Shown: piece after piece, positions 2,076 to 20,149 of the stretch
How the letters are laid out: each line of letters opens with the position of its first letter
Numbering within the stretch: position 1 is the stretch's first letter
Assembly: GCA_021775555.1 (NCBI GenBank)
Contig: JAJFHP010000069.1
Span: forward strand, 1-60,472
Source of the DNA: Hyphomicrobiales bacterium
GTDB lineage: Bacteria; Pseudomonadota; Alphaproteobacteria; Rhizobiales; Methyloligellaceae
DNA length: 60,472 nt
Direction: 5' to 3'
Translations under genes and position numbers: made by a program
Notes under the pieces: model-generated
The model's database searches: none
What the model saw: only the letters and a program-made list of their open reading frames with translations
What the model was told of the DNA's origin: nothing

Positions 2076-3278
2076 ATGCCTGAAATTTCGGACGACTTCT
2101 TCAAGAATCTGTCAGCATTTACCGAGTTTTCCAGCGTAACCGATCTCTCACTTTACCGCCTGCTACCTGATGATTGGTTGATTGTTCTGGCCGACATCAC
2201 CTCTTCCACCAAGGCAATTGAAGAAGGGCGATACAAGGACGTCAACATGATGGGGGCTGCTTGCATCACTGCCGTCATCCGAGCCTTGCCGTATAACAAA
2301 ATCCCTTATGTATTTGGCGGCGATGGAGCGACCCTTGCCATTCCCGGCTCTGCCAGGGATATCGTCGCACGAACACTCGGAGCTACGCGCAGACTTGCCA
2401 AAACGCAATTCAATCTGGATTTGCGCGTAGGCTTGGTGCCGATCAGCGACGTTCGCGATGCAGGCGCGGATGTTCTGGTGGCAAAATTTCAACTCAGCCG
2501 CGGAAATTATATTGCCATGCTGACGGGCGGCGGTGTCCAGCTGGTGGACACGATGATCAAGTCGGCAGAAGGACGTAAAAAGTATCAAATCCCGGTTCCC
2601 GAGGATGATGTAGCGCCGGACATGGAGGGGCTGTCATGCAGGTGGGAACCTTTGAAATCATGCCGTGGCACGATGTTGAGTATGCTGGTCTATGCCACAG
2701 GCAAGACGAATTCCGAAAATATCGCGATTTATCGTGAGGTGATTGACGGTGTGGCCCGGATATTCAAATCGGATCCAACAGTTGCCAGCCCGGTCAGCAC
2801 CGGGAACATGATTTTCAAATGGCCGCCTCCAGGGATTCAAAATGAAATCAAGCTGTTTGCTGATTCATCAAATCGCCGCCGCAAATGGTTCCGGATGTAT
2901 TTTACCAGCCTGGTGCAGTTCATTCTGGAAAAGTTTGATCTGTCCGCCGGAGGGTATGATGCGCCGGTCTACCGGGCAGAACTGCGCGCCAATTCCGATT
3001 TCAGACGCTTCGACGATATGTTGCGCATGATCCTCGATTGCTCGACCGGGAATGCCAAGGCTATCGAGGCGCACTTTCAGGACCTGCGCGCCCGAGACAA
3101 GATTGCTTATGGGCTTCATTACTCCAATCAGGCCTTGATGACTTGCCTGGTATTTTCCTTGGAGCAGGGAGAGCACGTACATTTCGTCGACGGCTCGGAT
3201 GGCGGCTTTACCATGGCGGCTGTTCAGCTCAAGGCGCAACTGCAAGCCGCATCCAAAAAAGCTGGCGCAGAAAACTGA
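2076..3278 (+). CDS. DUF3095 family protein, possible nucleotide-cyclase-like enzyme
   Basis: At 400 residues this is typical for DUF3095. The N-terminal half reads WLIVLADITSSTKAIEEGRY and then VFGGDGATLAIP, followed by RVGLVP. This spacing mimics class III cyclases and GGDEF proteins, in which one Asp after a hydrophobic strand and a second in a GD turn hold the two metals. Both acidic positions are kept here. The C-terminal half (about residues 220-400) is specific to the family and has no motif I recognise. The gene ends 7 bases from the end of a convergent, authentic adenylate cyclase gene, which makes a nucleotide-signalling role plausible. Family call firm; enzymatic activity is inference. 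Confidence 0.8.
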   Translation: MPEISDDFFKNLSAFTEFSSVTDLSLYRLLPDDWLIVLADITSSTKAIEEGRYKDVNMMGAACITAVIRALPYNKIPYVFGGDGATLAIPGSARDIVARTLGATRRLAKTQFNLDLRVGLVPISDVRDAGADVLVAKFQLSRGNYIAMLTGGGVQLVDTMIKSAEGRKKYQIPVPEDDVAPDMEGLSCRWEPLKSCRGTMLSMLVYATGKTNSENIAIYREVIDGVARIFKSDPTVASPVSTGNMIFKWPPPGIQNEIKLFADSSNRRRKWFRMYFTSLVQFILEKFDLSAGGYDAPVYRAELRANSDFRRFDDMLRMILDCSTGNAKAIEAHFQDLRARDKIAYGLHYSNQALMTCLVFSLEQGEHVHFVDGSDGGFTMAAVQLKAQLQAASKKAGAEN

Positions 3279-3285
3279 ATGTGAC

Positions 3286-4605
3286 CTAACCAGCCACGGT
3301 ATAGATTTTAGTTGGCGCTTCACGTCCACGTACGGTCACTTCGCCGGCCTGCTTAAAATCAAATTCAGATCCGCATAACTGTACCGTCTCTTCACCCGCC
3401 AGGATGTAGGAGCCATATTGCTTGTTCAACGGCTCCAACCGGGCTGCAACATTCACCTGGTCGCCATGAACGGTAAAACTCAACCGTTCCTTTGATCCAA
3501 TAGCGCCGACGATAATCTCACCACTATTGACGCCGCATCGTGTCGGTAGTGTTGCGCCATGACAAAAGACGTGAGCCTGGGTGAGTTCACGAATTCCCAG
3601 GGCCGTCTTCATGGCATTGACGGCATGATTGTCGTCACGCGTCACCGCGTTGAAGGTAATCAGCATCGCGTCGCCCTGAAACTGGGTGATGACGCCGCCA
3701 AACTGGTCGATGATTTTGCTGGTCGCCTCGAAATATTGGTTCAACATCTTAGCCAGTTGCTGTGGTGTCAGTTTTTCAGAAACGGTCGAAAACCCCTCCA
3801 TATCTGTGAACAGCACCGTGGCGGTGCGCGATTCCCCATCGCCTGGCTGGACGGCTCTGTCAGATGACGTAATCCGGTCCGCGACCTCGCGGGAGACGAA
3901 GCGGGAGAGATCACTGGCCGCAGTTGCATCGCGCACGGCGCTGTTCAGGATGCGCCGCGCCCGGACTATGGCGACGAACAGAACCATTGTGACCGCGGCG
4001 ATGGATATGATCTTGTCGACCTCCGCCCCGATCAGCACGGCATTGGAAGTGAGATAATCCACATAGTTGCGTGTAATCATCGGGTTGTCAGGATCTGCAA
4101 ACAGGACATACCCGACCATGGAGGCCCATCCGATGATGGCCGTCACACCAGCCCAAAGGATATAGCGGGGCTCGAAACGTAATGTGCGAAGGGCAATAAA
4201 AATAAACACATACATCACCGTTGGCGCCTTCAGATAGAATGATGCCGGCTGTTCATACTGGATGTGGAAACTCCAGATCAGAAACATCAAGAGCCCCATG
4301 TCCATGATCACCGAAGAGATAAGGAGCCATCCGGGTAAATAGTTTTTGTAAGCTGCAACGAGCCGGATAACGGTGAAAACAAAATAGAGTGAGATCGCCC
4401 ATGGCACGGGCTGGAACATGGCCTGCGAGCCGGTTTTGGGAGACAGCGAATAAAGGGCGAAAAATGTTGCCACCAATACGAATTGCACCCAGCCAATCAG
4501 GATTTCACTTTCCTGCTGCTGAAGCGCAATATTTTCCTGAACGCGCCGGGGCAAATGGCCCGTCGTCCGTGCACCGAAAATAAAAGCCCTCAATCCTGCC
4601 AGCAT
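3286..4605 (-). CDS. Membrane-bound class III adenylate/guanylate cyclase
   Basis: The protein has 439 residues. The N-terminal half holds about six membrane segments (for example LIGWVQFVLVATFFALYSL, VPWAISLYFVFTVIRLVAAY, ISIAAVTMVLFVAIV). A linker leads to a C-terminal class III catalytic domain from about residue 260. The first metal Asp is in VLFTDMEGFS and the second in QFQGDAMLITF. The transition-state Asn/Arg pair is in GDQVNVAARLE, preceded by the usual SFTVHGD. All catalytic positions I can recognise are intact, so it should make a cyclic nucleotide at the inner membrane face. A candidate, though doubtful, receiver lies nearby: the protein encoded at 6524-9622 ends in a cyclic-nucleotide-binding domain. 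Confidence 0.92.
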   Translation of the reverse strand: MLAGLRAFIFGARTTGHLPRRVQENIALQQQESEILIGWVQFVLVATFFALYSLSPKTGSQAMFQPVPWAISLYFVFTVIRLVAAYKNYLPGWLLISSVIMDMGLLMFLIWSFHIQYEQPASFYLKAPTVMYVFIFIALRTLRFEPRYILWAGVTAIIGWASMVGYVLFADPDNPMITRNYVDYLTSNAVLIGAEVDKIISIAAVTMVLFVAIVRARRILNSAVRDATAASDLSRFVSREVADRITSSDRAVQPGDGESRTATVLFTDMEGFSTVSEKLTPQQLAKMLNQYFEATSKIIDQFGGVITQFQGDAMLITFNAVTRDDNHAVNAMKTALGIRELTQAHVFCHGATLPTRCGVNSGEIIVGAIGSKERLSFTVHGDQVNVAARLEPLNKQYGSYILAGEETVQLCGSEFDFKQAGEVTVRGREAPTKIYTVAG

Positions 4606-5510: not shown

Positions 5511-6443
5511 ATGAGAATGGTAATGTGCGCGTTACCATCATTATCAAGATTGACATCAAGCGAGACGCAATTGGAACAGGCACTTGAAACTTGCAGTCTA
5601 CGCCCCCTGGCCCCCAGAGTGGGTATGGAAGTGACCAGTGTCGATCTGTCAAATTTATCCACCGAGGACAGCTATTTTATACTCGACGCCTTTCATAACC
5701 ATTCCGCATTGCTGTTCCGTGATCAGAAGCTCAGCAATGATGACTTTGTCTCGTTCAGCCGAATTTTTGGCGAACTGGACAGGGCGGCGGAGGCGCAACT
5801 GCACAAAGCCGTTCCCGGAATGCCGGAAATTTTCGTAGTGTCCAATATCAGGGATACGGACGGAACGGCCATTGGTAGTCTCGGCGCAGGCGAGGCCGTG
5901 TGGCATTCCGACAATTCAGACCGCGAGAACCCGCCTGACGCTATTCTGCTCTACGCGATGGAAGTTCCGCCCACAGGTGGCGATACATCGGTCTCCGGTA
6001 TGTTTGCTGCACTGGAAGACATGCCCGCTGATTTGCGCCGCAAAATCGAGGGCCGATCCATCAAGCATGATGGCACCTATAATGCGGGCGGTTACGTACG
6101 CAAGGGCGTGGAGGCCAATGACGATCCGCTTACCAGTGTGGGCCGGCTTCACCCGGCAATTTGTCTCCATCCGGCGTCGGGCAAGCCGGTGCTCTACCTG
6201 GGGCGACGCCGCAATGCCTATGTGGACGGATTGAGCCTTGAGGACTCCGAGGCACTTCTCGATGAGTTGTGGGAACACGCCACGAACAGCAAATATACTT
6301 ATGTGCATAAATGGCGCGTTGGTGATCTGCTGATGTGGGACAATCGTTCGACCCTTCACCGGCGTAAAGAATTCAATCCCGAGCACCGCCGGTTGATGCA
6401 CCGCACGCTCATACATGGCAAGACCGCACCTTGTTCGGCTTAG
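5511..6443 (+). CDS. TauD/TfdA-family Fe(II)/2-oxoglutarate dioxygenase
   Basis: The protein has 310 residues. The facial triad is visible: His and Asp in AVWHSDNSD and the distal His in LMHRTLIHG. The Arg that holds 2-oxoglutarate is in the same C-terminal strand region. The N-terminus has the family opening LRPLAPRVGMEVTSVDLS and HSALLFRDQ. Family members hydroxylate small acids such as taurine or 2,4-D; the substrate here cannot be told. The chosen ATG at 5511 gives about 30 residues before the fold begins, and a TTG at 5571 is a possible later start. The 212 bases before the gene contain nothing I can identify. Confidence 0.88.
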   Translation: MRMVMCALPSLSRLTSSETQLEQALETCSLRPLAPRVGMEVTSVDLSNLSTEDSYFILDAFHNHSALLFRDQKLSNDDFVSFSRIFGELDRAAEAQLHKAVPGMPEIFVVSNIRDTDGTAIGSLGAGEAVWHSDNSDRENPPDAILLYAMEVPPTGGDTSVSGMFAALEDMPADLRRKIEGRSIKHDGTYNAGGYVRKGVEANDDPLTSVGRLHPAICLHPASGKPVLYLGRRRNAYVDGLSLEDSEALLDELWEHATNSKYTYVHKWRVGDLLMWDNRSTLHRRKEFNPEHRRLMHRTLIHGKTAPCSA

Positions 6444-6523
6444 TGGATCAACCTTCTATTTGATCCAGCCCCCCGAATAATTGATGATTACGTTTCGGCT
6501 TCACTCACCAAAGAGCAGTGACC

Positions 6524-9500
6524 ATGGAAAACAGCATTTTTCAATTCATCTGGCGCCATAGCAAAAGGCAGCAGATCACGATCATGCTGATGACGTTGGC
6601 GTCTCTTCCGTTCCTGTACCTTGTCCTCGATCTGCCAAAATACATCATCAATGATGCGATCGACGGAAAGACTTTTCCAAAGGAATTATACGGATTTGAA
6701 TTTACCCAGGTTGAATATCTGCTTTTGCTGTGTACCGGTTTGCTGGCGCTGCTCATCATCAACGCGTACTTCTCCATGAGGATCAACACGTATAAAGGCG
6801 TATCCTCGGAACGGCTTGTCCGTCGCCTGAGATACCAGCTCTACGAGAATATCCTGCGCTTTCCACAAAAGCATTTCCAGAAAGTCACGCCCCCGGAACT
6901 CTCCGCGATGATAACTGCGGAAGTCGAGCCCATGGGCGACTTTATCAGCGATTCATTCTCAATGCCGATGGTCCAGGGCGGGACAATGCTGACCATTCTC
7001 TTTTTCATGATTTCCGAGGACCCAATCCTCGGACTGGTCGCAATATCCATGGTTCCGGTCCAGGCCTGGGTCATTCCGAAACTCCAGACCAAGGTCAATT
7101 TGCTCGGGCGGGAACGCGTTATCAGGGCGCGTAAACTTGCCGGTTGGGTCGGTGAGTCCGTGCTCGGCATTGGCGACATTCATACCAATGATACATCCAC
7201 CTACATGCAAGCGAGCATCTCGGAAAAGCTCGGTGGCATTTTTAATATCCGGTATCAGCTGTATCAAAAAAAGTTCTTCATGAAGGCGCTCAACGTCTTC
7301 CTGAGCCAGCTGACCCCATTATTCTTCTATTCGATCGGCGGCATTCTGGTCATTAACGGCAGTCTGTCGCTGGGCGCGCTGGTCGCAGTCCTGGCTGCCT
7401 ACAACCGGTTCACCACGCCGTGGAAGGAACTGCTGAAATATTATCAGCGTCTGAACGACGTGAAAATCAAGTATGAGCAGTTGGTCGAACAGTTTCAGCC
7501 CGACGAGATGCTGGACCTGAAGCAACTCAGTCATCGCCCTGAGACAATTGCACGCCTAAACGATGGCCTGACGCTCAGCAATGTACGCTTCATCGAAGAA
7601 GGAACGAAGGTGCTGGAGGATGTCACGGTTCAAATTGAGCCGGGTGACAATATTGCCATCGTCTCGGAACCGGCAACCCGCGACAAGTTCGCCCATTTGA
7701 TCGCCCGTCTCATTACTCCAACCAGTGGGAATATCTCGGTCGGAAAATCAAATCTTGCAGATCTTCCCGAAGCCGTAACGGGTGCCGCAATTGGTTATGC
7801 GGGACCTGAGTCCTATATTTTCTCTGGCACGATTGATGACAATATTCTTTATGGAACCAGGCACGTTCCCGTTGCAAACGGAGCCGGAATTGATGAGCAG
7901 AGCATAGAGTATGTGGAGGCACTGGCATCAGGCAACAGCTCGCACAGAATTGAGGCGGACTGGATCGACTTCAAGGCCCTTGGTTTAAGCGATGAGGTCG
8001 CGTTGAATGAATGGACGCTCAAGGTCATTCATACCGTTGAGCTTGATGACCTGCTGGCGGCGCGCTCTCTCAGCATGCGGCTGGACGCGGAAAAAAATCC
8101 TGACCTCGCCGGGAGCATGATGAAAGCGCGTCAGCTTATTGCGACCAGGCTTAGTGAAAATCCGGAAAATTCTGAACTGATTCGCCCGTACAAGTTCGAC
8201 CAATATAATGCCAACGCATCGGTCGCAGCCAATCTCGTATATGGAGTGCCGGTGAATGAAGAGTTCGAATTCAAAACCCTTGGCGGCAACCCATATGTTC
8301 GAGCTGTGCTGGATGAGTGTGACCTGACGGACCGGTTCGTGAAGATAGGTTACGAAGTGGCAGAGATGGTGATTGACCTGTTTGGTGATATGACCGCTGA
8401 CCAGCCCTTGTTCGAAAATTTCAGTTTTGTCGATGAGGAAACGCTGCAGGAGTTGAAAACCCTAACTGCAAATGTTGGTCCAGAAGAACTTGAGACTCTG
8501 AAAGAGGAGGACAAAACCCTTCTCGTATCACTCACCTTGCAGCTGATCGTTGACCGCCATCGCTTTGGTTTCATCGACGATGATATTCAGCACCTGATCC
8601 TGGGGGCACGTCGGATCTTTCGCGAGAAACTGCCCGAGGAGAAGCATGCCGAGATTGCTTTTTTTGATCAGGAAGAATTCAATTCGCAATTGAGCAACCG
8701 TAACAACCTGCTGGTGGGGACTATCAATCACACCATCAACAATGCGGAGGAAAGGCTCAACGAAATTACATTTGATGTCCTGAAGGAGATGGGCCTGGTC
8801 GATAAGATGATCCTTCACGCGACAGGTTTTGATGTTGGTGTGGGGGGCTCAAAATTATCTCACGCCGACAAACAGAAAGTTGCCCTTGCCCGAAGCATCA
8901 TCAAGAGACCGGATATTCTCGTAAACAATGATGCCCTGAGCTCCATGGACCGTGAGGCCCAGACGCGCATACGCCAAAATATTTTTGGTCTGCTCCCTGA
9001 GACCACCTTCATCTATTTTTTCAGCGAGATGCCGGAAGGGTCGGAGTTCAAACAAGTCCTTTCCATGCGCGATGGTCGCATCGTTGAGCGGTATATTGAT
9101 GATCGCAAGGAGGTAATGATGTCAGCTGCTGCCGAGTCGGAAGAAGTCGAGGTCGGAGGCGAGGAAGAAGGGGCTTCTTCCGTGATGGTGAATGTGGAAG
9201 CCGCGGCTCTGTCGCATATTCCGCTATTTTCCTCAATCAGCACCAATCACTTGAAACTGCTGGCTTTCAGCAGCAAGCGAATTAATTTTGAACCGGGTCA
9301 GAACCTGATCGACGAGGGTGAGCCAGGTGAATTTGCCTATGTGATCTTGGACGGTGAGGCCGATGTTATTGTCGGTTCCGGCAAAAAAGAAAAGGTCATT
9401 ACACAACGCGGGAAGAACGAACTTATTGGTGAACTTTCACTGCTCACTGAAGCGCTCACCACGGCAACGGTGCGTGCTGTAACCCCGTTGACGGCACTGC

Positions 9501-9622
9501 GAATCGAAAAGGAGGTGTTTCTGCAGTTGATGGAAGGTGATGGCCGGGTCGCTTCCCAGGTAGCAAGCTGGGTCAGCAACAAGCTTGTGTCGTCCATGCA
9601 GGATCAGAGCAAGACGAAGTGA
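6524..9622 (+). CDS. ABC-exporter-like protein with degenerate ATPase domain, large insertion and cNMP-binding fold
   Basis: ATG 6524 is preferred because an AAGAG site lies 8 bases upstream; GTG 6518 is the alternative. Residues 1-310 form an ABC type-1 exporter membrane domain. The ATPase fold that follows (LSNVRFIEEGTKVLEDV, TPTSGNISVGK, IFSGTIDDNILYG, VALARSIIKRPDIL) has lost its chemistry. The Walker A slot reads SEPATRDKF (about 7664-7690), there is no Q-loop Gln, the signature is LSHADKQ (about 8855), Walker B reads ILVNNDA, and the switch His is replaced (FFSEMPE). Roughly 330 acidic, helical residues (about 7870-8840) are inserted between the two halves. A C-terminal cyclic-nucleotide-binding domain (about 9210-9560) has GELSLLTEALTTATVRA, in which the phosphate-binding Arg of the usual PRxATV is Thr. 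The protein may be a regulatory or scaffolding membrane protein rather than a pump. Confidence 0.88.
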   Translation: MENSIFQFIWRHSKRQQITIMLMTLASLPFLYLVLDLPKYIINDAIDGKTFPKELYGFEFTQVEYLLLLCTGLLALLIINAYFSMRINTYKGVSSERLVRRLRYQLYENILRFPQKHFQKVTPPELSAMITAEVEPMGDFISDSFSMPMVQGGTMLTILFFMISEDPILGLVAISMVPVQAWVIPKLQTKVNLLGRERVIRARKLAGWVGESVLGIGDIHTNDTSTYMQASISEKLGGIFNIRYQLYQKKFFMKALNVFLSQLTPLFFYSIGGILVINGSLSLGALVAVLAAYNRFTTPWKELLKYYQRLNDVKIKYEQLVEQFQPDEMLDLKQLSHRPETIARLNDGLTLSNVRFIEEGTKVLEDVTVQIEPGDNIAIVSEPATRDKFAHLIARLITPTSGNISVGKSNLADLPEAVTGAAIGYAGPESYIFSGTIDDNILYGTRHVPVANGAGIDEQSIEYVEALASGNSSHRIEADWIDFKALGLSDEVALNEWTLKVIHTVELDDLLAARSLSMRLDAEKNPDLAGSMMKARQLIATRLSENPENSELIRPYKFDQYNANASVAANLVYGVPVNEEFEFKTLGGNPYVRAVLDECDLTDRFVKIGYEVAEMVIDLFGDMTADQPLFENFSFVDEETLQELKTLTANVGPEELETLKEEDKTLLVSLTLQLIVDRHRFGFIDDDIQHLILGARRIFREKLPEEKHAEIAFFDQEEFNSQLSNRNNLLVGTINHTINNAEERLNEITFDVLKEMGLVDKMILHATGFDVGVGGSKLSHADKQKVALARSIIKRPDILVNNDALSSMDREAQTRIRQNIFGLLPETTFIYFFSEMPEGSEFKQVLSMRDGRIVERYIDDRKEVMMSAAAESEEVEVGGEEEGASSVMVNVEAAALSHIPLFSSISTNHLKLLAFSSKRINFEPGQNLIDEGEPGEFAYVILDGEADVIVGSGKKEKVITQRGKNELIGELSLLTEALTTATVRAVTPLTALRIEKEVFLQLMEGDGRVASQVASWVSNKLVSSMQDQSKTK

Positions 9623-9632
9623 GCGCGCTCCC

Positions 9633-10283
9633 ATGTCTAACCAAGTAGCGATGTATCTGGATATCCTGAAAGGATTGGCAGTCCATTTTGACAGCCGGCT
9701 TATCACCGATATCCGGGAAACTTCCTTGCAGTACCCTGATATCAGGTTGGGTCACGCCCTCAACCATAACCAGTCAGTATCCAAGAAATGGCTGATCGAT
9801 TCACTTTTTGAGTCAACTGGCGGAAAGCTTGGACGTGTTTGCATTCTCGGCGGCTGGTATGGCGTGCTCGGCTTCAAGCTGCTGCATGATCCGCGTTTCG
9901 ACATCGAGCATGTCACGAGCGTAGATATCGATATAACCTGCAAGGAGGTCGCGCTCAGTCTGAACAGGACCCATGTAGACGCGAGTAATTTTTCGTTCAT
10001 TGCGGCTGACATGTACGAGATGGAATTCGTTCGAGACGAATACGACCTCATCGTGAACACCAGTTGCGAACATCTGGAAACGATCGGTAAATGGTTTGAG
10101 AGAATTCCCACAGGGACACTGCTTACGCTGCAATCAAATAATTATTTCGGGATTGATGGGCATGTGAATTGCGTTGAGACACTGGATCAGTTCAAGCAAC
10201 AGGTTCCCCTTGAAGATGTGTTGTTTGAGGGTGAATTGGAGTTGAAGAAATATACCCGTTTCATGCTTATAGGACGGCGCTGA
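9633..10283 (+). CDS. Putative SAM-dependent methyltransferase
   Basis: The protein has 216 residues. The start ATG at 9633 (MSNQVAMYL) lies 10 bases after the end of the ABC-like gene, so the two are probably one operon. The core reads GRVCILGGWYGVLGFKLL (a motif-I-like glycine turn), then VTSVDID (strand-2 acid), SFIAADMYEM, and YDLIVNTSCEHL, a motif-IV equivalent. The open frame could start upstream at 9585, but that would overlap the preceding gene by 38 bases. Substrate unknown. Its tight linkage to the dead ABC/cNMP protein suggests a shared pathway. Confidence 0.7.
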   Translation: MSNQVAMYLDILKGLAVHFDSRLITDIRETSLQYPDIRLGHALNHNQSVSKKWLIDSLFESTGGKLGRVCILGGWYGVLGFKLLHDPRFDIEHVTSVDIDITCKEVALSLNRTHVDASNFSFIAADMYEMEFVRDEYDLIVNTSCEHLETIGKWFERIPTGTLLTLQSNNYFGIDGHVNCVETLDQFKQQVPLEDVLFEGELELKKYTRFMLIGRR

Positions 10284-10286
10284 CGT

Positions 10287-11441
10287 TCATCCTCCAAGCC
10301 ATTGAGATACCAGCGACGCACTCTTCTCAGCACCTCGAAGATCAATGTCCGGCAGACCTGGAGGTGGTGCCTTTAACGCGGCATCAATTGCCAGGGCCAA
10401 CGATTGTGGACTTAATTCCTCATCTTCAACCAGTTCTATCAAACCCATCGTCTTGAGGCGCCGGGCGCGAAACAATTGTTCGGTTTCTCCACGGGCGGAA
10501 TAGGGCACGACAACTGATCGGCAACCAGATCGAAGCAGATCAACAACCGTGTTGTACCCGGCCTGTGACACGGATACGGCGCATGCAGCAAGGAGGGACG
10601 CAAAGTCTCCCCGGTTTGGCTCCAGCGTGACACCGGCAACTAGGCGAGAAGCCAGTTTTTCGAACTCATCAGATGGAAGGTTTGGCCCGGCCAGCAACCG
10701 CCAGGGCCGGTTTTTTGCGTTCGACAAATCTCGCGCCTCGATGGCGACGCCAAGAAGTCTTTCACTTTGAGTGCCTCCGCCGCCGGCCGAGACAAGGACC
10801 TCGCCGTCTGAAGACCTATCAACAACCCCAGCAACATCAGGTGGTTTGGAAACCAGGCCCGTGTAATGAATCTTGTCTGCAAAATTTTCCGCACCGGGAA
10901 ATGTTTCTTCTAATATGACGAATTCCGGATCGCCATGAACCAGGACATGATCGAAATACTGGCTGACATATTCGATCGTCTCACGGACACGGTCCGGTTT
11001 GTTGCTTCGTTGCAGGATGTCCCGGACCGAACTGATTATGACCGGTTTCGGGGATGCGGATTGAGCTTGTTGGAGAAGCGGGAGCAATTCGAAACTCATT
11101 TGCCTGCGCCCGAATGGAAAGGCTTCGATGATAATGGCGGCGGGTTGGAGCCGGGCAAGCAGGGCCAGGAGTTCATCACGGCGCTGGTCCATAAAGGGGC
11201 TGTCTAATGGCAGTGCGTTCTCATCAATCAGATCGCTAAAATCACCATCACGACATTTAATGGGCGTTAGCTGGTGGAAATTGACACCTGCCACGTCAAG
11301 GCCGGGAACGGGCATTCCGCCCGATACCAGATCAACCGCCAGTCCGACGTTTGCCATCGCCCGGGCAATGTGAAGGGCCCGGTAAAGATGCCCGACGCCC
11401 TGAAGATACTGAACGTAGAATAAAATCCGGGATTCAGTCAT
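10287..11441 (-). CDS. GT28/MurG-like glycosyltransferase
   Basis: The protein has 384 residues. The N-terminal Rossmann fold opens with ILFYVQYLQGVGHLYRALHIARA, where the G-GH turn binds the acceptor side in MurG-like enzymes. The C-terminal fold has VLVSAGGGGTQSERLL and VSQAGYNTVVDLLRSG, the nucleotide-sugar-binding region of GT-B family 28. Donor and acceptor are unknown. It overlaps the histidine phosphatase gene by four bases (ATGA), so translation is coupled. It is the last gene of a four-gene minus-strand set (14530 to 10287) that also includes a GT4 enzyme and a second GT28-like protein. Confidence 0.82.
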   Translation of the reverse strand: MTESRILFYVQYLQGVGHLYRALHIARAMANVGLAVDLVSGGMPVPGLDVAGVNFHQLTPIKCRDGDFSDLIDENALPLDSPFMDQRRDELLALLARLQPAAIIIEAFPFGRRQMSFELLPLLQQAQSASPKPVIISSVRDILQRSNKPDRVRETIEYVSQYFDHVLVHGDPEFVILEETFPGAENFADKIHYTGLVSKPPDVAGVVDRSSDGEVLVSAGGGGTQSERLLGVAIEARDLSNAKNRPWRLLAGPNLPSDEFEKLASRLVAGVTLEPNRGDFASLLAACAVSVSQAGYNTVVDLLRSGCRSVVVPYSARGETEQLFRARRLKTMGLIELVEDEELSPQSLALAIDAALKAPPPGLPDIDLRGAEKSASLVSQWLGG

Positions 11442-12028
11442 TTCGGAGCAATGCTGATATTGATGCGTTCCACGCTCACATGTCCCTTTTCAGCGACGTT
11501 AAAGCTATGCATGGCGCCTCTTTGAAACTTTTCCGGTGGTGCTTCAACCATGCTCCAGCCGGTAGCCAATGAATAGAGGGCACGGATCACACCATGATGA
11601 GCCACAGCAAGAGTTGGCCGGCCATGCCTGGCAATCTCCATGAGCCAAGGCTTTAAACGGTCCTGTACCTCTCGTGGCTTCTCACCGCCATCGGGTCGAA
11701 AATCGAGGCCGAGAGCCTCGTTCTCGGCCATCTCGCGTCCCAAATCCCTGCGCAGGTCCTGGAGCCGGCTGCCTTCCCATTTACCGTAATCCATCTCCAT
11801 GAGCCTGGGCTCGACTTGCAGGCTAACAGCACCAAGCAGTTCCGCTGTCTCCCTGGCCCGGATGAGAGGACTGCACACCCATTGATACTGGTTGAACGGG
11901 GAGGGGACCTGCCAGTTTGACACGAGTTTGCGACCGTCCTCGCTGAGGGGAATATCCTGGTGACCCTGGAGGCGCTTTTCTTCATTCCACGCGGTTGGAC
12001 CGTGGCGGATCATGACCAAAGGCGTCAC
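11438..12028 (-). CDS. Histidine phosphatase family protein (phosphoglycerate mutase-like)
   Basis: The protein has 196 residues. It begins MTPLVMIRHGPTAWNEEKRL; the RHG carries the phosphorylated His, and the residues after it are the usual T-x-W-N. Other family landmarks are LSEDGRKL, CSPLIRARETAELLG, a catalytic-acid region EMDYGKWEG, and a late His in AVAHHGVIRALYSL. The start is GTG at 12028; ATG 12013 is possible but would trim the first strand. In this setting, between glycosyltransferase genes, it more likely dephosphorylates a sugar or nucleotide intermediate than acts in glycolysis. That is inference from context. Confidence 0.88.
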   Translation of the reverse strand: MTPLVMIRHGPTAWNEEKRLQGHQDIPLSEDGRKLVSNWQVPSPFNQYQWVCSPLIRARETAELLGAVSLQVEPRLMEMDYGKWEGSRLQDLRRDLGREMAENEALGLDFRPDGGEKPREVQDRLKPWLMEIARHGRPTLAVAHHGVIRALYSLATGWSMVEAPPEKFQRGAMHSFNVAEKGHVSVERINISIAPK

Positions 12029-12051
12029 GCTACATCGCTCCTTCGCCGTCG

Positions 12052-13305
12052 TCAGGCGCGTATTCGGTTTCGGGTCTTGGCAAGACCGAATTTTACCGCC
12101 AGCTGATCCACGCCTTGTACATGCGAAAATTTCTCGCGGACGCGGCCGAGCCCGGCCTCACCCAATCTTGCGCGCAAGGCCGGATCAGAAATGACCCGTT
12201 CGAGAGCCGAGGAGAGGGCGTGTTCATCGTCAGGCGGCACCAGTACCCCGGTGACGCCATCCTCGATCAATTCCGGTATCGCCGAAAGTCTGGTGGAAAC
12301 ACACGCCAGTCCCTGGCTTTGCGCTTCCATCATCACGTTGGGCAATCCATCCATATCGCCATCATGGGCAACGCAATTGGCGAGAGCAAACATGTCGGCG
12401 GCGCGGTAACTCTCAATCACCTTGTCCTGTGGCTGGGCGCCCATCCATGTAATGCGGTCATCAATGTGAAGCTTTTCAGCCTGGCATTTGAGAGCAGGGA
12501 GCAGCGCGCCATCACCAATGTGGACGAAGCGCCAATGAAGCTGTTTGGGCAAGCGTGCAAGGGCGTCAAGCAGACATCCATAACCTTTTTTCTCGACTGC
12601 ACGGCCTACCGATATAATGCTTACCAAGCTATCCTTGCTGCCGCCATCTGGCGCAGCTTCTCTACGGTTGGGGCGAGGAAAACGGTCAAAATCCAGACCG
12701 TGATAGACCAGTTCCACGCGTTGCGGATCACGGGCAAGGTTGGCCAGATGTTTTTGCCCGATGTCCGTACAGGTCACGAGCCACTCAAGATCGTCCAGTT
12801 TCTCTTTCTTGTCCCAGTCGGGCGCGGTCCAGATATCGCGCGCATGTGCCGAACAACTCCAGGGCAGACCCAGCACCATGGCAGCATAACGGGTGACAGA
12901 AGCAGGCGTATGTATGTAATGGGCGTGGAGGCTTGAGAGCTGAGTGGGGGCCTCATGGGCCAGCACAAGCGACTGGGTGAAACTGCGGGCACGGGCAAGG
13001 GATAAATCGCGCCGCAAATCCCTGAACCACTGATTTCGGGCAGAGCGGTAATTGGGCTGCCTGCGCCCCCACCACCATGCTTTGAGAACTCTCACAGGTT
13101 CGCTTGCTGGAAACTCGGGCAGGTACAAGACCCTGGCCTCGATCTCTTCATGGATAAGATGGCGTCTGCTGTCTGTTGGCTGGCGCAGGGAGACGATCAG
13201 AATATCCAGACCGCGTTGTTCAAGGGCAAGGATTTCCTGGGCAATAAAGGTTTCCGACAATCGCGGATAACCCTTGAGAACGAATGCGACCGCTGATTGC
13301 ACCAC
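12052..13305 (-). CDS. GT4 family glycosyltransferase
   Basis: I place the start at GTG 13305 (417 residues), 7 bases after the stop of the upstream gene. The longest open frame reaches 13401 but would overlap that gene by 89 bases. The protein opens AFVLKGYPRLSETFIAQEI, a hallmark of exopolysaccharide GT4 enzymes. It continues with LHAHYIHTPASVTRYAA, then SVGRAVEKKGYGCLLDAL and GLPNVMMEAQSQGLACVST, the E-x7-E-type donor site. It probably transfers a hexose to a surface glycan or glycolipid. The histidine phosphatase gene follows after 23 bases. Confidence 0.88.
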   Translation of the reverse strand: MVQSAVAFVLKGYPRLSETFIAQEILALEQRGLDILIVSLRQPTDSRRHLIHEEIEARVLYLPEFPASEPVRVLKAWWWGRRQPNYRSARNQWFRDLRRDLSLARARSFTQSLVLAHEAPTQLSSLHAHYIHTPASVTRYAAMVLGLPWSCSAHARDIWTAPDWDKKEKLDDLEWLVTCTDIGQKHLANLARDPQRVELVYHGLDFDRFPRPNRREAAPDGGSKDSLVSIISVGRAVEKKGYGCLLDALARLPKQLHWRFVHIGDGALLPALKCQAEKLHIDDRITWMGAQPQDKVIESYRAADMFALANCVAHDGDMDGLPNVMMEAQSQGLACVSTRLSAIPELIEDGVTGVLVPPDDEHALSSALERVISDPALRARLGEAGLGRVREKFSHVQGVDQLAVKFGLAKTRNRIRA

Positions 13306-13312
13306 GGTCTCG

Positions 13313-14530
13313 TTACATGTCAGCAAGTTGCAGTTCTTCCGCGTCGATTCCGTTGCCGAGAATCCTGCGCGACATCTCGCCAATGGAGTCCAGACCTCCA
13401 AGCATGCCGGGCCTGAGTGCTGCTGAAGGTTTTGCCTGGTTAGGAAGGTTTTTCAACGCCTCGGACATTACGCTCGTTTCAAGGCCGTCATCGGGAATCA
13501 GCACTTTCAATAGACCCATATCCTGGGCCCTGAGCGCACGGATCATTTGTTCCTTTCGCGGTTCAACACGAGGAACAACCAGTGCAGGTTTGTCGTAGGA
13601 CAATATTTCGCAGAACGTATTGTATCCCGCCATCGAAACGACGCAGGCGGACCTTGCCATCAATACCTCCAATCTGGAGTCGAAGGTGATGACGTTTACC
13701 CGGTCAAGGTTCTTGCAACGGTCGATGAATTCGTCGCGCTCCTCATGCGGCATGAATGGTCCAAGGACGATCAGGGCGGAAAGCGGAAGCCGGTCATCGC
13801 TTTCATAGGCGCGAAGCACCCAGTCTATCATTGCCACACCGTCCCCGCCGCCACCCGTGGTGACCAGCATGTACGGTTCCTGGACATCCAGTGATTTGGG
13901 TAACTCGGTTTCCTTAGGCAGCTGACGTGGCAGATACCCCGTATAGAGCATTTTGTCCCGGATGGCGGGAGAGAGATTCATGCTGTCCAGTGGATCGACA
14001 AAATCCTCGCGGCCATAGACCCAGATTTCGTCGTACAGATTTTCCATCGCCTCAATGGCGTGACCATTACTCCACTCTCTTTTCAGGAGCATCGGTTCAT
14101 CCATGACATCACGCAATCCCAGAACCAGCCGCGTGTCTGTGGATTTCAGCATTTCCAGGGTCTGGGTCATTTCACCCTTAAGGCCGAGCGGTTCCTTGTC
14201 GACCAGCAGCAAGTCAGGGGCGAATGTCCTGGCCGTATGGCGGATGATGGATTCACGAATGGAGAGGGTATCCTTGAGGTCGATATGCAGACCCAGGGAC
14301 GTGTAGTCACCATTGTATAATTTGATGACGCCTGGAATACGGATGAAATCCACGCGAGCGCGAAAATCAAAATTCCCGATAATCGGGGACCCGGACAGGA
14401 TCAGTACCGTTAGCCCCTTGAAGCGCTCAACAAGCGAATGCGCAATCGTTCTGCAACGGCGCAGATGCCCCAGACCGAAAGTGTCATGGCTGTAAATGAG
14501 TATACGCTTGGACCTTAAAGCCTCTACCAT
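13313..14530 (-). CDS. GT28/MurG-like glycosyltransferase
   Basis: The protein has 405 residues and starts at ATG 14530. The N-terminal domain opens ILIYSHDTFGLGHLRRCRTIA with the family GLGH turn. The C-terminal domain has YMLVTTGGGGDGVAMIDW and VSMAGYNTFCEILSY, followed by PALVVPRVEPRKEQM, a typical nucleotide-sugar pocket. It is a clear relative of the gene at 10287-11441 (shared AGYNT and GGGG motifs), so the operon holds two paralogous enzymes that may add successive sugars. It is first in the minus-strand operon; the upstream region carries a 12-base inverted repeat. Confidence 0.83.
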   Translation of the reverse strand: MVEALRSKRILIYSHDTFGLGHLRRCRTIAHSLVERFKGLTVLILSGSPIIGNFDFRARVDFIRIPGVIKLYNGDYTSLGLHIDLKDTLSIRESIIRHTARTFAPDLLLVDKEPLGLKGEMTQTLEMLKSTDTRLVLGLRDVMDEPMLLKREWSNGHAIEAMENLYDEIWVYGREDFVDPLDSMNLSPAIRDKMLYTGYLPRQLPKETELPKSLDVQEPYMLVTTGGGGDGVAMIDWVLRAYESDDRLPLSALIVLGPFMPHEERDEFIDRCKNLDRVNVITFDSRLEVLMARSACVVSMAGYNTFCEILSYDKPALVVPRVEPRKEQMIRALRAQDMGLLKVLIPDDGLETSVMSEALKNLPNQAKPSAALRPGMLGGLDSIGEMSRRILGNGIDAEELQLADM

Positions 14531-15323: not shown

Positions 15324-17213
15324 TTGGATGACCTCATAAGGATCAACGACCTGAGGGTCGAATTTTCCCTGCTTGGCGGCACAATCGAGGCCGTGAAGGG
15401 CGTATCCATGCGAATCCGGCCGGGCTCCACCGTGGCGCTGGTCGGGGAATCAGGTTCCGGCAAATCCGTGATCGCCCAGTCAATCATGGGAATACTCCCG
15501 AAGGTAGGACGGATCACATCAGGTGAAATACTCTTCGCCGACCCGGATAAGAACAATGAGGTCATCGATATTGTCTCCCTCTCACCCGATGGCCAGCAAA
15601 TGCGCGACATTCGGGGGGGAAGCATCTCCATCATTTTTCAGGAACCCATGACCTCGCTCTCGCAGTTCCACACTGTGGGGGACCAGATCGGCGAGGCTTT
15701 GCACCTGCATCGTGACATCGGCTCCAAAGAAGGGCGCGAAGCGGTTGAAAAGATGCTGCGTCTGGTCGGTTTTCCCGATCCTTCCGCCGCCATTGACACA
15801 TATGCGTTTGAGCTTTCGGGCGGCCTGCGCCAAAGGGCGATGATTGCGATGGCGCTTGTGTGCCGGCCGGCGCTGTTGATTGCCGATGAACCAACGACCG
15901 CGCTCGACGTTTCAATCCAGGCCACAATTTTGAAATTGATCAAGGAGTTACAGGCTGAGCTGGGCATGGCAGTTTTAATGATCACCCATGACCTGGGTGT
16001 CGTCGCCAATGTTGCTGATGAAGTTGTCGTTCTCTATCACGGCAAGGTCATGGAAAGCGGCTGCGTTGGCGATATCTTCGGCAAGCCTGGCCATAAATAT
16101 CTTCAGGCCCTGATTAAAGCGGTGCCGCATTTTGATATGAAAGCTGGCGAACGCCTGACGCCTGTTCATGAAATTGACTATGAGTCCGGGCCTTTGATGA
16201 GCGCCAAGGAACCGTGGCCCAGTGACCTCGATAAGGAAGCCACGCTGCTGAGCGTGAACGGGCTTACGAAACACTACACCACCCGAAAGCAGTCCTGGTT
16301 CGGCTCACGCGAAGCTACGAGGATCACGGCGGTTGACGGCGTAAATTTCGATATCAAGCGTGGCGAGTGTCTTGGTCTGGTTGGTGAAAGCGGGTGCGGT
16401 AAGTCGAGTGTCAGCAAGCTTATTATGCGTGCCATCTCGTCCGATGCCGGGACTGTCACGTTCAACGACCGCGGCAATATTGTGGATCTTCTTTCGGTTG
16501 AAGACGAAGAGATGATGCCGCTGCGCCGCAAGATCCAGATGATCTTCCAGGACCCGGTTGGCTCGCTGAATCCGCGTATGACGGTATTTGATATTATCCG
16601 TGAGCCGCTGGTGATCCACGAAATCGGCAGTGCGCGCGAGCAGGCTGATATGGTGCGCGAACTGGTGCGCCTGGTTGGCCTCGACCCGCGCTTCCTCAAT
16701 CGTTACCCGCACAGTTTTTCCGGTGGTCAGCGCCAGCGCATTGGACTTGCAAGGGCGCTGGCTCTGAAGCCCGATTTGCTGATCTGCGATGAGCCGGTTT
16801 CTGCTCTCGATGTGTCAATCCAGGCCCAGGTCCTTAACCTTTTCAAGGACCTGCAAAAAGACCTGAACCTGACCTATCTCTTCATTTCGCATAACCTTGC
16901 GGTTGTCGATTATATCGCCGACCGCATCGCCGTGATGTGCCGGGGCCGTATCGTCGAGATCGCGCCACGCGAGCTCCTGTTCCGCAACCCGGTTCATCAT
17001 TATACGCGTCGGCTGATGGCGGCTGTTCCCTATCCTGACCTTGATCGAAAACTCGATTTCTCGAGCTTTGAAAAATTGGGGAGCAATGAGCCTGCGAGTT
17101 GGCCCAAACCCTTTGCAATCAGACCTGATCTTCCCTCTGCAATGTTTGATCTTGGGGGCGAACATTACGTCCTTGCAGCAGAAGGAACATCGCCACGGGA
17201 GCTCGGATCATGA
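15324..17213 (+). CDS. yejF: Oligopeptide ABC importer ATPase with two fused nucleotide-binding domains (YejF-like)
   Basis: The protein has 629 residues and two complete ATPase halves. Half 1: Walker A GESGSGKS (about residue 39), signature LSGGLRQR, Walker B LLIADEPTTALD. Half 2: Walker A GESGCGKS (about 353), signature FSGGQRQR, Walker B LLICDEPVSALD. Each ends with the OppD/F-type tail near HxYTRRLMAAVPYPD. This is the fused arrangement seen in YejF/GsiA. The only plausible start is TTG 15324, because a stop lies at 15303. Its stop overlaps the binding-protein start (ATGA), so the four genes to 21321 form one operon for microcin-C-like or oligopeptide uptake. Confidence 0.92.
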   Translation: MDDLIRINDLRVEFSLLGGTIEAVKGVSMRIRPGSTVALVGESGSGKSVIAQSIMGILPKVGRITSGEILFADPDKNNEVIDIVSLSPDGQQMRDIRGGSISIIFQEPMTSLSQFHTVGDQIGEALHLHRDIGSKEGREAVEKMLRLVGFPDPSAAIDTYAFELSGGLRQRAMIAMALVCRPALLIADEPTTALDVSIQATILKLIKELQAELGMAVLMITHDLGVVANVADEVVVLYHGKVMESGCVGDIFGKPGHKYLQALIKAVPHFDMKAGERLTPVHEIDYESGPLMSAKEPWPSDLDKEATLLSVNGLTKHYTTRKQSWFGSREATRITAVDGVNFDIKRGECLGLVGESGCGKSSVSKLIMRAISSDAGTVTFNDRGNIVDLLSVEDEEMMPLRRKIQMIFQDPVGSLNPRMTVFDIIREPLVIHEIGSAREQADMVRELVRLVGLDPRFLNRYPHSFSGGQRQRIGLARALALKPDLLICDEPVSALDVSIQAQVLNLFKDLQKDLNLTYLFISHNLAVVDYIADRIAVMCRGRIVEIAPRELLFRNPVHHYTRRLMAAVPYPDLDRKLDFSSFEKLGSNEPASWPKPFAIRPDLPSAMFDLGGEHYVLAAEGTSPRELGS

Positions 17214-19108
17214 GGGCAGGGTGTCTCGCATGGCTGCTCGGCCTTGTTCTGTTCGCATGCCCCGCTTTGGCAGTGGAATTTATCGAGGTTCCAAGCCTGG
17301 TCAAACAGGTCGAAGGCGGTGAATTGCCACCGATTGGGAAGCGCGTCCCACAGGAGCCCGCCATTATCGATCTCGACGCGGCGGGAAAAGTGCCGGGCAA
17401 CTACGGTGGCGTATTGCGATTGCTGATGGGCAAGCAGAAGGATACGCGCATGATGAGCGTGTATGGTTATGCCCGGCTCATCGCGCTTGATGACAGGTTG
17501 CGTTTCAGCCCCGATATCCTGAAAAGTTATGAAGTGAATGAAGGCCGTGAATTCACATTTCATCTGCGCGAGGGGCACAGATGGTCCGATGGTCACCCCT
17601 TCACCGCCGAGGATTTTCGCTATTTCTGGGAAGACATCGCGACAAACAAGAAAATGTCACCACGGGGATTGCCAAAGGCACTGCTCGTTGAGAAGAGACC
17701 GCCAAGTTTTGAGGTGATAGATGAGACCACGGTGCGTTACACGTGGCACAAGCCGAACAGGCAGTTCATCCCGTGGATCGCCGGGCCGCGCCCGCTGCAG
17801 CTCTATCGCCCGGCTCATTATCACAAGCAGTTCCACATCGATCATGGCGACAGGCAGGAGATTGAGACGCTCATCAAGGCAGAACGCAAGCGCGACTGGA
17901 TTGATCTCCATGCAAGCCGCGACCGTTGGTACCGCATGGACAATATCGACCAACCAACGCTGCAGCCATGGATGAATACAACCAAACCGCCAGCTGTCCG
18001 CTTCGTGTTCTTGCGCAATCCGTTCTATCACCGGATCGACACCAGGGGACATCAGCTGCCCTATATTGACCGGGTGCTCATGTCGCTTGGCGAGACCAAG
18101 GTGATCCCGGCCAAATCAGGGTCCGGTGAAACTGATTTGCAAGCCCGTTATCTACGTCTCAACCACTATACGTTCCTGAAAGAAGGTGAGTCGCGCTACA
18201 ACTATTCCGTAAAATTGTGGAAGCGGGCACAGGGTGCCCATATCGCTCTATATCCCAATCTGAATGCTGCCGATGCGCAGTGGCGCAAACTTCTACGAGA
18301 CCCACGTTTCCGCCGTGCACTGTCGCTGGCCATCAACCGGCATGAAATCAACCAGGTGGTCTATTACGGGCTTGCGAGTGAAGGGAACAACACGGTTCTG
18401 CCAGCCAGCCCTCTCTATAGCCCCCGACTGCAAAAAGCCTGGTGTGAATTTGATCTCAAGCAGGCCAATGAACTTCTGGACGCCATTGGGCTGACCAAAC
18501 GAAACGCGGAGGGACTCCGGTTGATGCCAGATGGCCAGCCGATGATTATTCCCGTGGATACCGCGGGCGAGAGCACCGAGCAGGTTGATGTCCTTGAGCT
18601 GATACATGACAGCTGGCTCAAGGCTGGCATCAAGCTCTTCACCAGGCCTTCACAACGCGAGGTTTTCCGCAGGCGCATCGTTGCAGGACAGACGATTATG
18701 TCGGTCTGGTCAGGAATCTCGAACGGAATTGCAACAGCTTCAATGAACCCGGAGGAATTGGCGCCATCAAATAAATATCAGCTGCAGTGGCCGCAATGGG
18801 GCTTGTGGAGCCAGACAAGTGGCAAAAGTGGTGAGGCGCCAGCACTTCCGGAAGTCCGCCGCCTGGGGGAACTTCACAGCGCCTGGTTGCAGGCCGTCAG
18901 CACCGAAGAGCAGGAAAATATATGGCGAGAGATGCTGGACATTCACGCGGACCAGATATTTTCCATCGGCATCGTCAACAGCACCTTGCAACCGGTTCTG
19001 GTGAGTAACCGGTTGCGCAATGTGCCGTCGAATGCGTTTTATAACTGGAAGCCCGGCGCTTATTTTGGCGTCTACAAGCCAGATACCTTCTGGTACACAC
19101 CCCGATGA
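17210..19108 (+). CDS. yejA: Family 5 extracellular solute-binding protein (YejA-like)
   Basis: The protein has 632 residues with a clear Sec signal peptide (about residues 1-21: LAWLLGLVLFACPALA then V). The SBP_bac_5 signatures follow: FHLREGHRWSDGHPFTAEDF, PHRRALSLAINR-like text (RFRRALSLAINRHEINQ) and late strands ending NVPSNAFYNWKPG. It has no lipobox Cys at the cleavage site, so it should be free in the periplasm. The mature length is long for the family, as in YejA. It overlaps the ATPase gene by four bases and precedes both permeases. Peptide substrate inferred from the operon. Confidence 0.9.
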   Translation: MRAGCLAWLLGLVLFACPALAVEFIEVPSLVKQVEGGELPPIGKRVPQEPAIIDLDAAGKVPGNYGGVLRLLMGKQKDTRMMSVYGYARLIALDDRLRFSPDILKSYEVNEGREFTFHLREGHRWSDGHPFTAEDFRYFWEDIATNKKMSPRGLPKALLVEKRPPSFEVIDETTVRYTWHKPNRQFIPWIAGPRPLQLYRPAHYHKQFHIDHGDRQEIETLIKAERKRDWIDLHASRDRWYRMDNIDQPTLQPWMNTTKPPAVRFVFLRNPFYHRIDTRGHQLPYIDRVLMSLGETKVIPAKSGSGETDLQARYLRLNHYTFLKEGESRYNYSVKLWKRAQGAHIALYPNLNAADAQWRKLLRDPRFRRALSLAINRHEINQVVYYGLASEGNNTVLPASPLYSPRLQKAWCEFDLKQANELLDAIGLTKRNAEGLRLMPDGQPMIIPVDTAGESTEQVDVLELIHDSWLKAGIKLFTRPSQREVFRRRIVAGQTIMSVWSGISNGIATASMNPEELAPSNKYQLQWPQWGLWSQTSGKSGEAPALPEVRRLGELHSAWLQAVSTEEQENIWREMLDIHADQIFSIGIVNSTLQPVLVSNRLRNVPSNAFYNWKPGAYFGVYKPDTFWYTPR

Positions 19109-19150
19109 TCCGCGCTTGGCCAAAACACGATCCTGAGAGAGCAGGCGGGC

Positions 19151-20149
19151 ATGGTTAGCTATATCTTCCGGCGTCTGCTGATCATGGTCCCGACTCTACT
19201 CGCGATCTCCATGATTGTATTCATCATCATCGAATTGCCGCCGGGTGATTATCTCGAAAGCTATGTCGCGGAACTGCAAGCCCAGGGCGAGAATGTCGAT
19301 CCCCAGCATATTGAGTTCCTGCGAGAAAATTACGGGTTTGGAGACCCGCCGGTGCAGCGCTATCTGAGCTGGATTGGCGGGATGCTGCAAGGAGATTTTG
19401 GTTACTCGTTCGAGTACAGGCTGCCGGTTACCGATGTTGTGGGAGATCGCCTTTTCCTGACCATCCTGGTGTCGATGGCCACGATCCTGTTCACCTGGAT
19501 GATTGCCTTTCCGATTGGCATCTATTCTGCAACCCACCAGTATAGCTGGGGCGACTATGGCCTGACATTCATTGGACTTCTCGGGCTGGCGACGCCCAAT
19601 TTTCTGCTCGCACTGATCCTTCTGTATTTCGCCAATGTTTACTTCGGCACGTCCATAGGCGGGCTAATGGACGCGGAGTTCATCGGCAAGCCCTGGAGCT
19701 TGGCCAAAGCGATTTCGGTGCTGGAGCATCTCTGGATTCCCGTTGTCGTCATTGGCACCTCGGGAACGGCGGGCATGATCCGACGCCTGCGCGCCAATTT
19801 ACTTGATGAGCTGCAAAAGCAATATGTCACCACAGCCAAGGCCAAGGGATTGGCACCCTTCAAGGCGCTGGTCAAATATCCGTTGCGTGCAGCTCTCAAT
19901 TTTTTCATTTCCGATATCGGCAACCTGCTGCCAAGTATTATCTCGGGCGCAGAACTGGTTGCAGTGGTCATGTCCCTGCCGACGACGGGACCGATACTGA
20001 TATCGGCCCTGCAAAGCCAGGACATGTATCTCGCGGGATCCTTTTTGATGTTCCTTGCCACATTGACCGTGGTCGGGGTTCTGATTTCCGATTTGCTTCT
20101 GGCCTGGCTTGATCCGCGCATCCGTCTCATGGGAGCAAACACGAAATGA
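19151..20149 (+). CDS. yejB: Oligopeptide ABC importer permease (YejB/OppB-like)
   Basis: The protein has 332 residues. The N-terminus MVSYIFRRLLIMVPTLLAISMIVFIIIELPPGDY is the OppB/DppB-type opening (shown here as one continuous feature: Arg-rich start, first membrane helix, then PPGDY). About six membrane segments follow. The cytoplasmic EAA-type loop is seen near YVTTAKAKGLAPFKALVKY, which docks on the ATPase. A 42-base gap separates it from the binding-protein gene, and it overlaps the next permease by four bases. Confidence 0.92.
   Translation: MVSYIFRRLLIMVPTLLAISMIVFIIIELPPGDYLESYVAELQAQGENVDPQHIEFLRENYGFGDPPVQRYLSWIGGMLQGDFGYSFEYRLPVTDVVGDRLFLTILVSMATILFTWMIAFPIGIYSATHQYSWGDYGLTFIGLLGLATPNFLLALILLYFANVYFGTSIGGLMDAEFIGKPWSLAKAISVLEHLWIPVVVIGTSGTAGMIRRLRANLLDELQKQYVTTAKAKGLAPFKALVKYPLRAALNFFISDIGNLLPSIISGAELVAVVMSLPTTGPILISALQSQDMYLAGSFLMFLATLTVVGVLISDLLLAWLDPRIRLMGANTK

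Follow-up and report, generated by a model that had tools for sequence, protein, structure and literature searches.

A predicted non-ATPase branch of the type IV ABC exporters in alphaproteobacteria, associated with cyclic-nucleotide-binding domains and glycan genes

ATP-binding cassette (ABC) exporters are the definition of ATP-driven transport. Heterodimeric exporters in which one of the two sites is degenerate are familiar, and their degenerate halves normally keep the Walker A motif and bind ATP. CFTR is an ABC exporter turned channel, and both CFTR and SUR bind ATP, with at least one working site, and are not known to have a cyclic-nucleotide-binding (CNB) domain or a triplicated subdomain. 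The nearest studied case in which we found an ABC exporter associated with glycosyltransferases is, from the available passages of three papers (PMC3687685, PMC12239276, PMC5596199), the MsbA2 operon of Sinorhizobium meliloti (SMb21188-21191), in which the exporter is encoded with glycosyltransferases and is proposed to export an unknown polysaccharide (PMC3687685), and in which its removal is harmful only while the upstream glycosyltransferases remain (PMC12239276). Here we describe the pseudo-ABC family of alphaproteobacteria, starting from a protein of 1032 residues encoded in a contig of 60,472 nucleotides from a Hyphomicrobiales bacterium (JAJFHP010000069.1, assembly GCA_021775555.1; this whole stretch is called the window below). 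From comparative sequence analysis, we propose with moderate confidence that it is a non-hydrolysing regulator or gate of a glycoconjugate pathway, coupled to cyclic nucleotide monophosphates (cNMPs) and descended from a type IV ABC exporter. We found no description of the family in the open-access literature of PMC; the queries were narrow, so this is weak evidence of absence. The S. meliloti msbA2 gene is ruled out as an ortholog by its position, as given in the passages at hand, at about 938 kb on pSymB versus 841.7-845.0 kb for the family member; SMb20813, called an msbA homologue in the available part of PMC10945364, could not be placed on the map.

The protein is encoded by a single open reading frame (ORF) with an ATG at 6524, a stop at 9622 and no internal stops; an in-frame GTG lies upstream, at 6518. 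Pfam profiles recover ABC_membrane (PF00664; residues 40-298, 6.8e-16) and cNMP_binding (PF00027; residues 920-1004, 1.1e-17), and the match to ABC_tran is restricted to residues 705-800, at 29.1 bits against a cut-off of 25. A model of the monomer, a step suggested in the preliminary description of this locus, predicts an exporter fold, confidently so in the nucleotide-binding domain (NBD): the mean predicted local distance difference test (pLDDT) score is 78.3, blocks of the NBD core mostly score 83-94, and among the matches listed in two comparisons against the PDB all 50 in each are ABC proteins. Motif positions were read from an alignment that included five intact exporters, taken from the genome of the window and from relatives. 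The Walker A region reads S-E-P-A-T-R-D against the consensus GxxGxGK[ST], with Arg for the Lys and Asp for the Ser/Thr, the position of the Q-loop Gln is occupied by Pro, and the signature, the Walker B Glu and the switch His are likewise replaced (Table 1). The preliminary description, made from the window alone, held that every catalytic motif had been lost; this stands for the five elements just named, and is slightly too strong because Ser779 of the signature and Asp809 of the D-loop are still present.

Relatives were gathered by a scan of contigs that confirmed 317, of which the 80 best loci were taken. Once 13 loci from a genome search and the window had been added, the non-redundant set came to 88 sequences; some of these are truncated at contig ends or have no CNB domain fused to them, and one locus with a broken frame (L105) was excluded. 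A profile of the NBD insertion alone (see below) has matches in 131 of 385 genomes of the window's class, taken from its named relatives to be Alphaproteobacteria, and in 31 of the 398 genomes of a draw from the phylum. Plasmid records with a relative at E up to 1e-40 number 337, of which 224 are from Rhizobium or Sinorhizobium. One record titled Nocardioides marinus (L099) has neighbours that cluster with Leisingera loci and is probably a mislabelled or contaminated assembly.

Across this family both the motif losses and the insertion prove to be conserved. In 160 aligned rows, with the window counted twice (as W and L120), we scored five residues, namely the Lys, Ser/Thr, Gln, Glu and His of the ATPase site: the full set is present in no row and 108 rows have none of the five, with residues surviving singly in others (Lys in 30, Glu in 30, His in 22, Gln in 11). 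The preliminary view of a fixed non-ATPase version thus describes a widespread state. Homologues with partly intact Walker motifs do occur among some distant relatives, not among the close ones, and the member nearest to an intact ATPase (L124) is without only the Gln and one signature Gly. Because some homologues keep parts of the ATPase site, the alignment indicates that the family arose from an ATPase by stepwise loss. It could also be argued that the altered site still binds, and perhaps slowly hydrolyses, ATP, so that the protein would be an ATP sensor or a slow exporter. This would accord with the replacement of the Walker A Lys by Arg (Arg in 104 rows, Lys in 30, and non-Lys in 130 including one gap; in the 88-sequence set, Arg in 82, Ala in 4 and Ser in 2) and of the Ser/Thr by Asp or Glu, with the D-loop Asp in 148 of the 160 rows, and with the near-complete L124. 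Nevertheless, in the window protein and in most fused members the replacements come together, at the Walker A glycines, the Q-loop Gln, LSGGQ, the Glu of Walker B and the switch His, and we consider residual ATP binding unlikely.

The NBD was earlier said to be split by an acidic helical insertion of 330 residues. The insertion is real and conserved in the family, but its extra length is about 290 residues, as the stretch from P428 to L778 spans 350 residues and its counterpart in MsbA about 60, and it is made of copies of the protein's own helical subdomain. On superposing the NBD of the predicted model (residues 343-864) on that of ComA, 227 residues align at 2.4 A, so that most of the insertion lies outside the superposition. 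Profile alignment of three segments, S1 to S3, built from 159 rows gave E-values of 7e-6 for S1-S2 and 1e-6 for S1-S3, as against 0.026-0.87 for shuffled, reversed and unrelated control segments; in the 88-sequence alignment the same pairs were weak (0.0069 and 0.0035), and the gain is partly because the segment ends were reset between the runs. The inserted region also shows a modest structural match to residues 425-499 of MsbA. Both the profiles and the predicted structure indicate that the insertion comprises two extra tandem copies of the ABC helical subdomain, from the Q-loop to the signature, amounting to a triplication. Insertion of a foreign domain was considered as well, and is ruled out by the profile alignment against its controls together with the MsbA match.

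Constraint in the family is also distributed unlike that in canonical exporters. Mean pairwise identity is 55% in the transmembrane (TM) domain and 37% in the NBD, with the TM value being the higher in 2747 of 2928 sampled pairs, whereas 14 canonical exporters display the reverse (TM 23%, NBD 44%); the inversion is absent from the 246 family pairs with TM identity below 40% (TM 23.5%, NBD 25.7%). These identities indicate that constraint has shifted from the NBD to the membrane domain. They bear on the proposal that the protein is the degenerate half of a heterodimeric exporter, with an intact half-transporter encoded elsewhere supplying the ATP site. Apart from the precedents mentioned above, TM287/288, TmrAB and IrtAB are among the closest folds listed, and the window genome does have other ABC proteins (17 matches including the pseudo-ABC, some being two pieces of one gene). 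However, the NBD has dropped in conservation, its Walker A position is mostly non-Lys as counted above, and no canonical exporter gene was found in the fetched flanks of 121 loci, in all of which the target gene was confirmed by profile; the filter used recovers 14 of 18 control loci. We count the heterodimer as improbable, a distant partner gene being the form in which it might still hold.

The window gene is under purifying selection. Relative to its closest relative (87% identical), the ratio of nonsynonymous to synonymous substitution rates (dN/dS) is 0.055 in the TM domain, 0.078 and 0.040 in the first and second halves of the NBD, 0.116 in the insertion, 0.133 in the CNB domain and 0.295 in the linker; in four other pairs, several of them synonymously saturated, the computable maxima are 0.205 for folded domains and 0.597 for the linker. 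Degenerate ATPase motifs, and a copy in S. meliloti 1021 that is broken across two frames, might be taken as signs of a functionless, decaying gene. The preliminary description already opposed this by pointing to the intact frame, and rightly so, as dN/dS in the folded domains is 0.04-0.13; decay is contradicted by this selection, and also by the occurrence of the family in 131 of the 385 class genomes with a profile matching that of a glycosyltransferase (see below), such that we regard it as highly improbable. As for the S. meliloti 1021 copy on pSymB (L217, 15962-18713), several other strains align in one piece.

We counted a CNB domain as associated if fused or if encoded downstream on the same strand within 1 kb, an overlap of up to 600 bases being allowed. 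By this measure it accompanies the pseudo-ABC in 117 of the 121 loci, fused in 86 and separate in 31; L188 has one in an overlapping frame, outside the strict-distance count, and none was found in L194-L196, which come from the deepest clade. The separate partner is a bare CNB protein of about 150 residues with the Glu and Arg of the phosphate-binding cassette, both of which are kept in 31 of 31 (one of them, L105, is a broken fused gene). Among the 86 fused domains, which include the window's, 80 retain the Arg, with Thr in four, Ala in one and a contig-end gap in another. Overall, 111 of 117 retain it and the exceptions are the window and its close orthologs, to whose branch the loss maps on the family tree. 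The Thr reported at this position in the preliminary description is confirmed (Thr979, with Glu970 retained); the "pseudo-cNMP" state that it ascribed to the protein is no feature of the family. In a tree rooted on the five exporters, all 94 rows with a fused CNB fall within one clade of 96 (support 0.953), joined there only by a fragment from a contig end and by the broken L105; this indicates a single fusion event.

Class III nucleotide cyclases were detected in the flanks of 24 of the 121 loci with a profile from four cyclases, where about 5-6 loci would be expected at the density of PF00211 matches (241 in 86.3 Mb, from 20 genomes), an estimate that uses another profile and other genomes. 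The cyclases are of several kinds and lie at several positions, and because 12 of the 24 loci share one Rhodobacteraceae arrangement there are fewer independent cases than 24. The cyclase of the window has TQFQGD in place of DKFxGD, with the metal Asp and the N..AAR motif intact; the Lys of DKF is the purine-selecting residue. An ortholog of this cyclase, at 71-100% identity, is present in all six genomes with a close pseudo-ABC ortholog (G000, G001, G002, G004, G005 and G006), four of which have it on the same contig. The purine site reads TQF in every one of the six, versus DKF in relatives, and Thr or Ala stands for the CNB Arg, a position that is unreadable in one fragment. Four genomes outside the close group (G011, G012, G026 and G003) keep both DKF and the Arg; G003 is placed in the same genus and has a distant family member at 34% identity together with an unaltered cyclase. 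In G007, also of this genus, we found neither a close pseudo-ABC nor, at 1e-40, an ortholog of the window cyclase. The Gln variant is not unique to the ortholog group, because a second cyclase of G001 (L231) reads NQFQGD. The cNMP circuit thus seems altered in the close relatives of the window, since the associated cyclase has also lost its purine-selecting Lys; as both changes lie on one branch, and hence constitute a single event, co-tuning of the cyclase and the CNB domain is a suggestion only.

The family is also tied to glycan genes. Over the 385 class genomes, the pseudo-ABC and the glycosyltransferase at 13313-14530 occur together in 124, the former alone in 7, the latter alone in 3, and neither in 251 (Fisher 7e-88, not corrected for phylogeny). 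This profile does not merely reflect linkage, because among the 29 genomes of at most 10 contigs that have both genes these lie within 15 kb of each other in 14 and do not in 15. Relatives of the GT28-like and GT4 genes are nearby in 26-27 of 40 broadly sampled loci and the histidine phosphatase in 18; the count for an Opp-type ATPase is 21, although here the cut-off was loose and some of these may be ABC ATPases of other types. Among 75 mostly Rhodobacteraceae loci, glycosyltransferases are nearby in one. Plasmids of Azospirillum ramasamyi, Shinella sp. HZN7 and Rhizobium phaseoli N831 combine the pseudo-ABC, glycosyltransferases and the same four kinds of Opp importer gene in varying order, and a single 19-kb stretch in R. 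phaseoli N831 holds, besides DUF3095 and a cyclase at the head of the run, the Opp importer, three glycosyltransferases, the pseudo-ABC and the CNB gene.

These associations, together with the constraint on the membrane domain, could be accommodated by an ATP-independent gate, by analogy with CFTR a channel or else a lipid or glycolipid scramblase, that is opened by the CNB domain. The membrane domain is the most strongly constrained part, the CNB is nearly always present with its ligand residues mostly intact, and there is the tie to a glycosyltransferase; yet the analysis gave no sign of a pore or of lipids being moved, and the window's own CNB domain is without the Arg, leaving the gate possible though doubtful. 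A more elaborate version is a cyclic-nucleotide-gated, ATP-independent gate or glycolipid scramblase that discarded its motor, with the tripled subdomain as an allosteric relay, under the control of a cNMP receptor that was at first separate and then fused once, and with the cyclase and receptor of the window group re-tuned together to another ligand; we put this forward as speculation that is rather unlikely to hold in full.

Under the broader proposal of a cNMP-coupled regulator or gate that does not hydrolyse ATP, this family of alphaproteobacteria, with its origin among the type IV ABC exporters, would have abandoned ATP hydrolysis and kept the membrane domain. The membrane dimer might recognise or handle a lipid-linked or surface glycan made by the neighbouring enzymes, and class III cyclases, sometimes encoded nearby, could supply the cyclic nucleotide read by the CNB domain. 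Its binding would set the state of the dimer via the enlarged helical region and thereby control glycan synthesis or passage, the swollen NBD being no longer a motor but a module for allostery or docking. Since both the cyclase and the CNB domain have changed in the window and its close relatives, the protein there may follow another ligand or be a nucleotide-independent scaffold; the sensor or scaffold role suggested in the preliminary description is our best guess for the window protein, and is unproven. We do not file it as an ATP-driven exporter, because its motifs say that it should not work as one, and the public label "ABC transporter ATP-binding protein" on some of these genes is unsupported by sequence. 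Found in over a third of the class genomes (131 of 385), the family is a clean system in which to ask what the membrane domain of an ABC protein does when ATP is not used. To our knowledge, the targets of cyclic nucleotides in alphaproteobacteria are mostly unknown, and the family links such signalling to a conserved glycan gene set. Moreover, with members grading from an almost intact ATPase to one that is fully degenerate, and with one CNB fusion, the evolution from pump to regulator should be traceable.

Beyond these genes, the neighbourhood includes a TauD-family dioxygenase that is near the pseudo-ABC in 6 of 6 loci of the window and its close relatives, versus 0 of the 115 other loci examined. 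In the DUF3095 protein, the motifs DITSST and FGGDG resemble those of cyclases and follow one another as expected; its alignment to class III cyclases by hhalign (probability 9.5%, E 0.0034) is only suggestive of a relationship, and its co-occurrence with the pseudo-ABC (20/25, p 1.5e-6) is far looser than that of the glycosyltransferase. Eight of the 121 loci (L179, L189, L190, L193, L197, L198, L215 and L216) have in their flanks a metallo-beta-lactamase-fold protein, which could be a phosphodiesterase of the circuit. Further off in the window, an ORF of 1001 residues (56417-59422, minus strand) gives sub-threshold apolipoprotein-like matches and is possibly a long helical protein.

Table 1. 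Positions of the pseudo-ABC gene, its parts and its neighbours in the window
Feature	Position	Strand	Basis or remark
DUF3095 protein	2076..3278	+	PF11294, 3.8e-118; present at the R. phaseoli locus too
Class III nucleotide cyclase with Gln for the purine-selecting Lys	3286..4605	-	PF00211, 9.2e-24
TauD-family dioxygenase, just upstream	5511..6443	+	
Whole ORF, 1032-residue pseudo-ABC/CNB protein	6524..9622	+	ORF call and Pfam
Transmembrane domain of ABC exporter type (residues 1-330), where the family is most conserved	6524..7513	+	PF00664; 54-55% mean pairwise identity
Degenerate Walker A, residues 381-388, Arg386 for Lys	7664..7687	+	Alignment with intact exporters
Repeat unit S1 (residues 416-552), the native helical subdomain with the Q-loop strand	7769..8179	+	hhalign to S2 7e-6, to S3 1e-6
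Repeat unit S2, inserted copy, residues 545-712	8156..8659	+	
Repeat unit S3, copy leading into degenerate signature and Walker B, residues 704-812	8633..8959	+	Profile alignment; secondary structure of the model
Degenerate signature LSHAD (for LSGGQ), residues 778-782	8855..8869	+	Alignment
Degenerate Walker B (Asn802-Asp803 for Asp-Glu) and retained D-loop Asp809	8915..8950	+	Alignment
Ser834 where the switch His is expected	9023..9025	+	Alignment
CNB domain, residues 886-1024, Glu970 kept, Thr979 for Arg	9179..9595	+	PF00027
Putative methyltransferase, just downstream	9585..10283	+	Weak PF13649 match, below cut-off; cluster in 8 loci
Gene run: GT28-like, histidine phosphatase, GT4, GT28-like	10287..14530	-	
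Co-occurring glycosyltransferase, last of the run	13313..14530	-	
Opp-type importer: fused ATPases, SBP family 5, two permeases	15324..21321	+	Part of the wider locus

Among the systems with which the pseudo-ABC family may be compared, the S. meliloti MsbA2 operon likewise encodes an ABC protein with glycosyltransferases; it is another locus, and the passages available on it mention no CNB domain. CFTR and SUR perhaps share with the family the reuse of an ABC fold as a channel or regulator in place of a pump, but the nucleotide site of the pseudo-ABC is largely lost. Like the heterodimeric exporters TM287/288, TmrAB, IrtAB and CydDC it has an NBD with lost catalytic residues, the difference being that its nucleotide-binding residues are mostly lost too and that no partner half-transporter was found in the flanks of the 121 loci. 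CRP-like CNB proteins without a helix-turn-helix (HTH) resemble the separate partner of the family, in being a bare CNB of about 150 residues with the Glu and Arg, whereas the family's CNB partners or is fused to a membrane protein of ABC fold. With the type IV exporters MsbA, Sav1866, PCAT1, ComA and TM287/288, the pseudo-ABC shares the transmembrane domain (PF00664, 6.8e-16) and the NBD fold; it departs from them in its degenerate ATPase motifs, its triplicated helical subdomain, the inverted conservation of its TM domain and NBD, and the CNB domain attached or adjacent to it.

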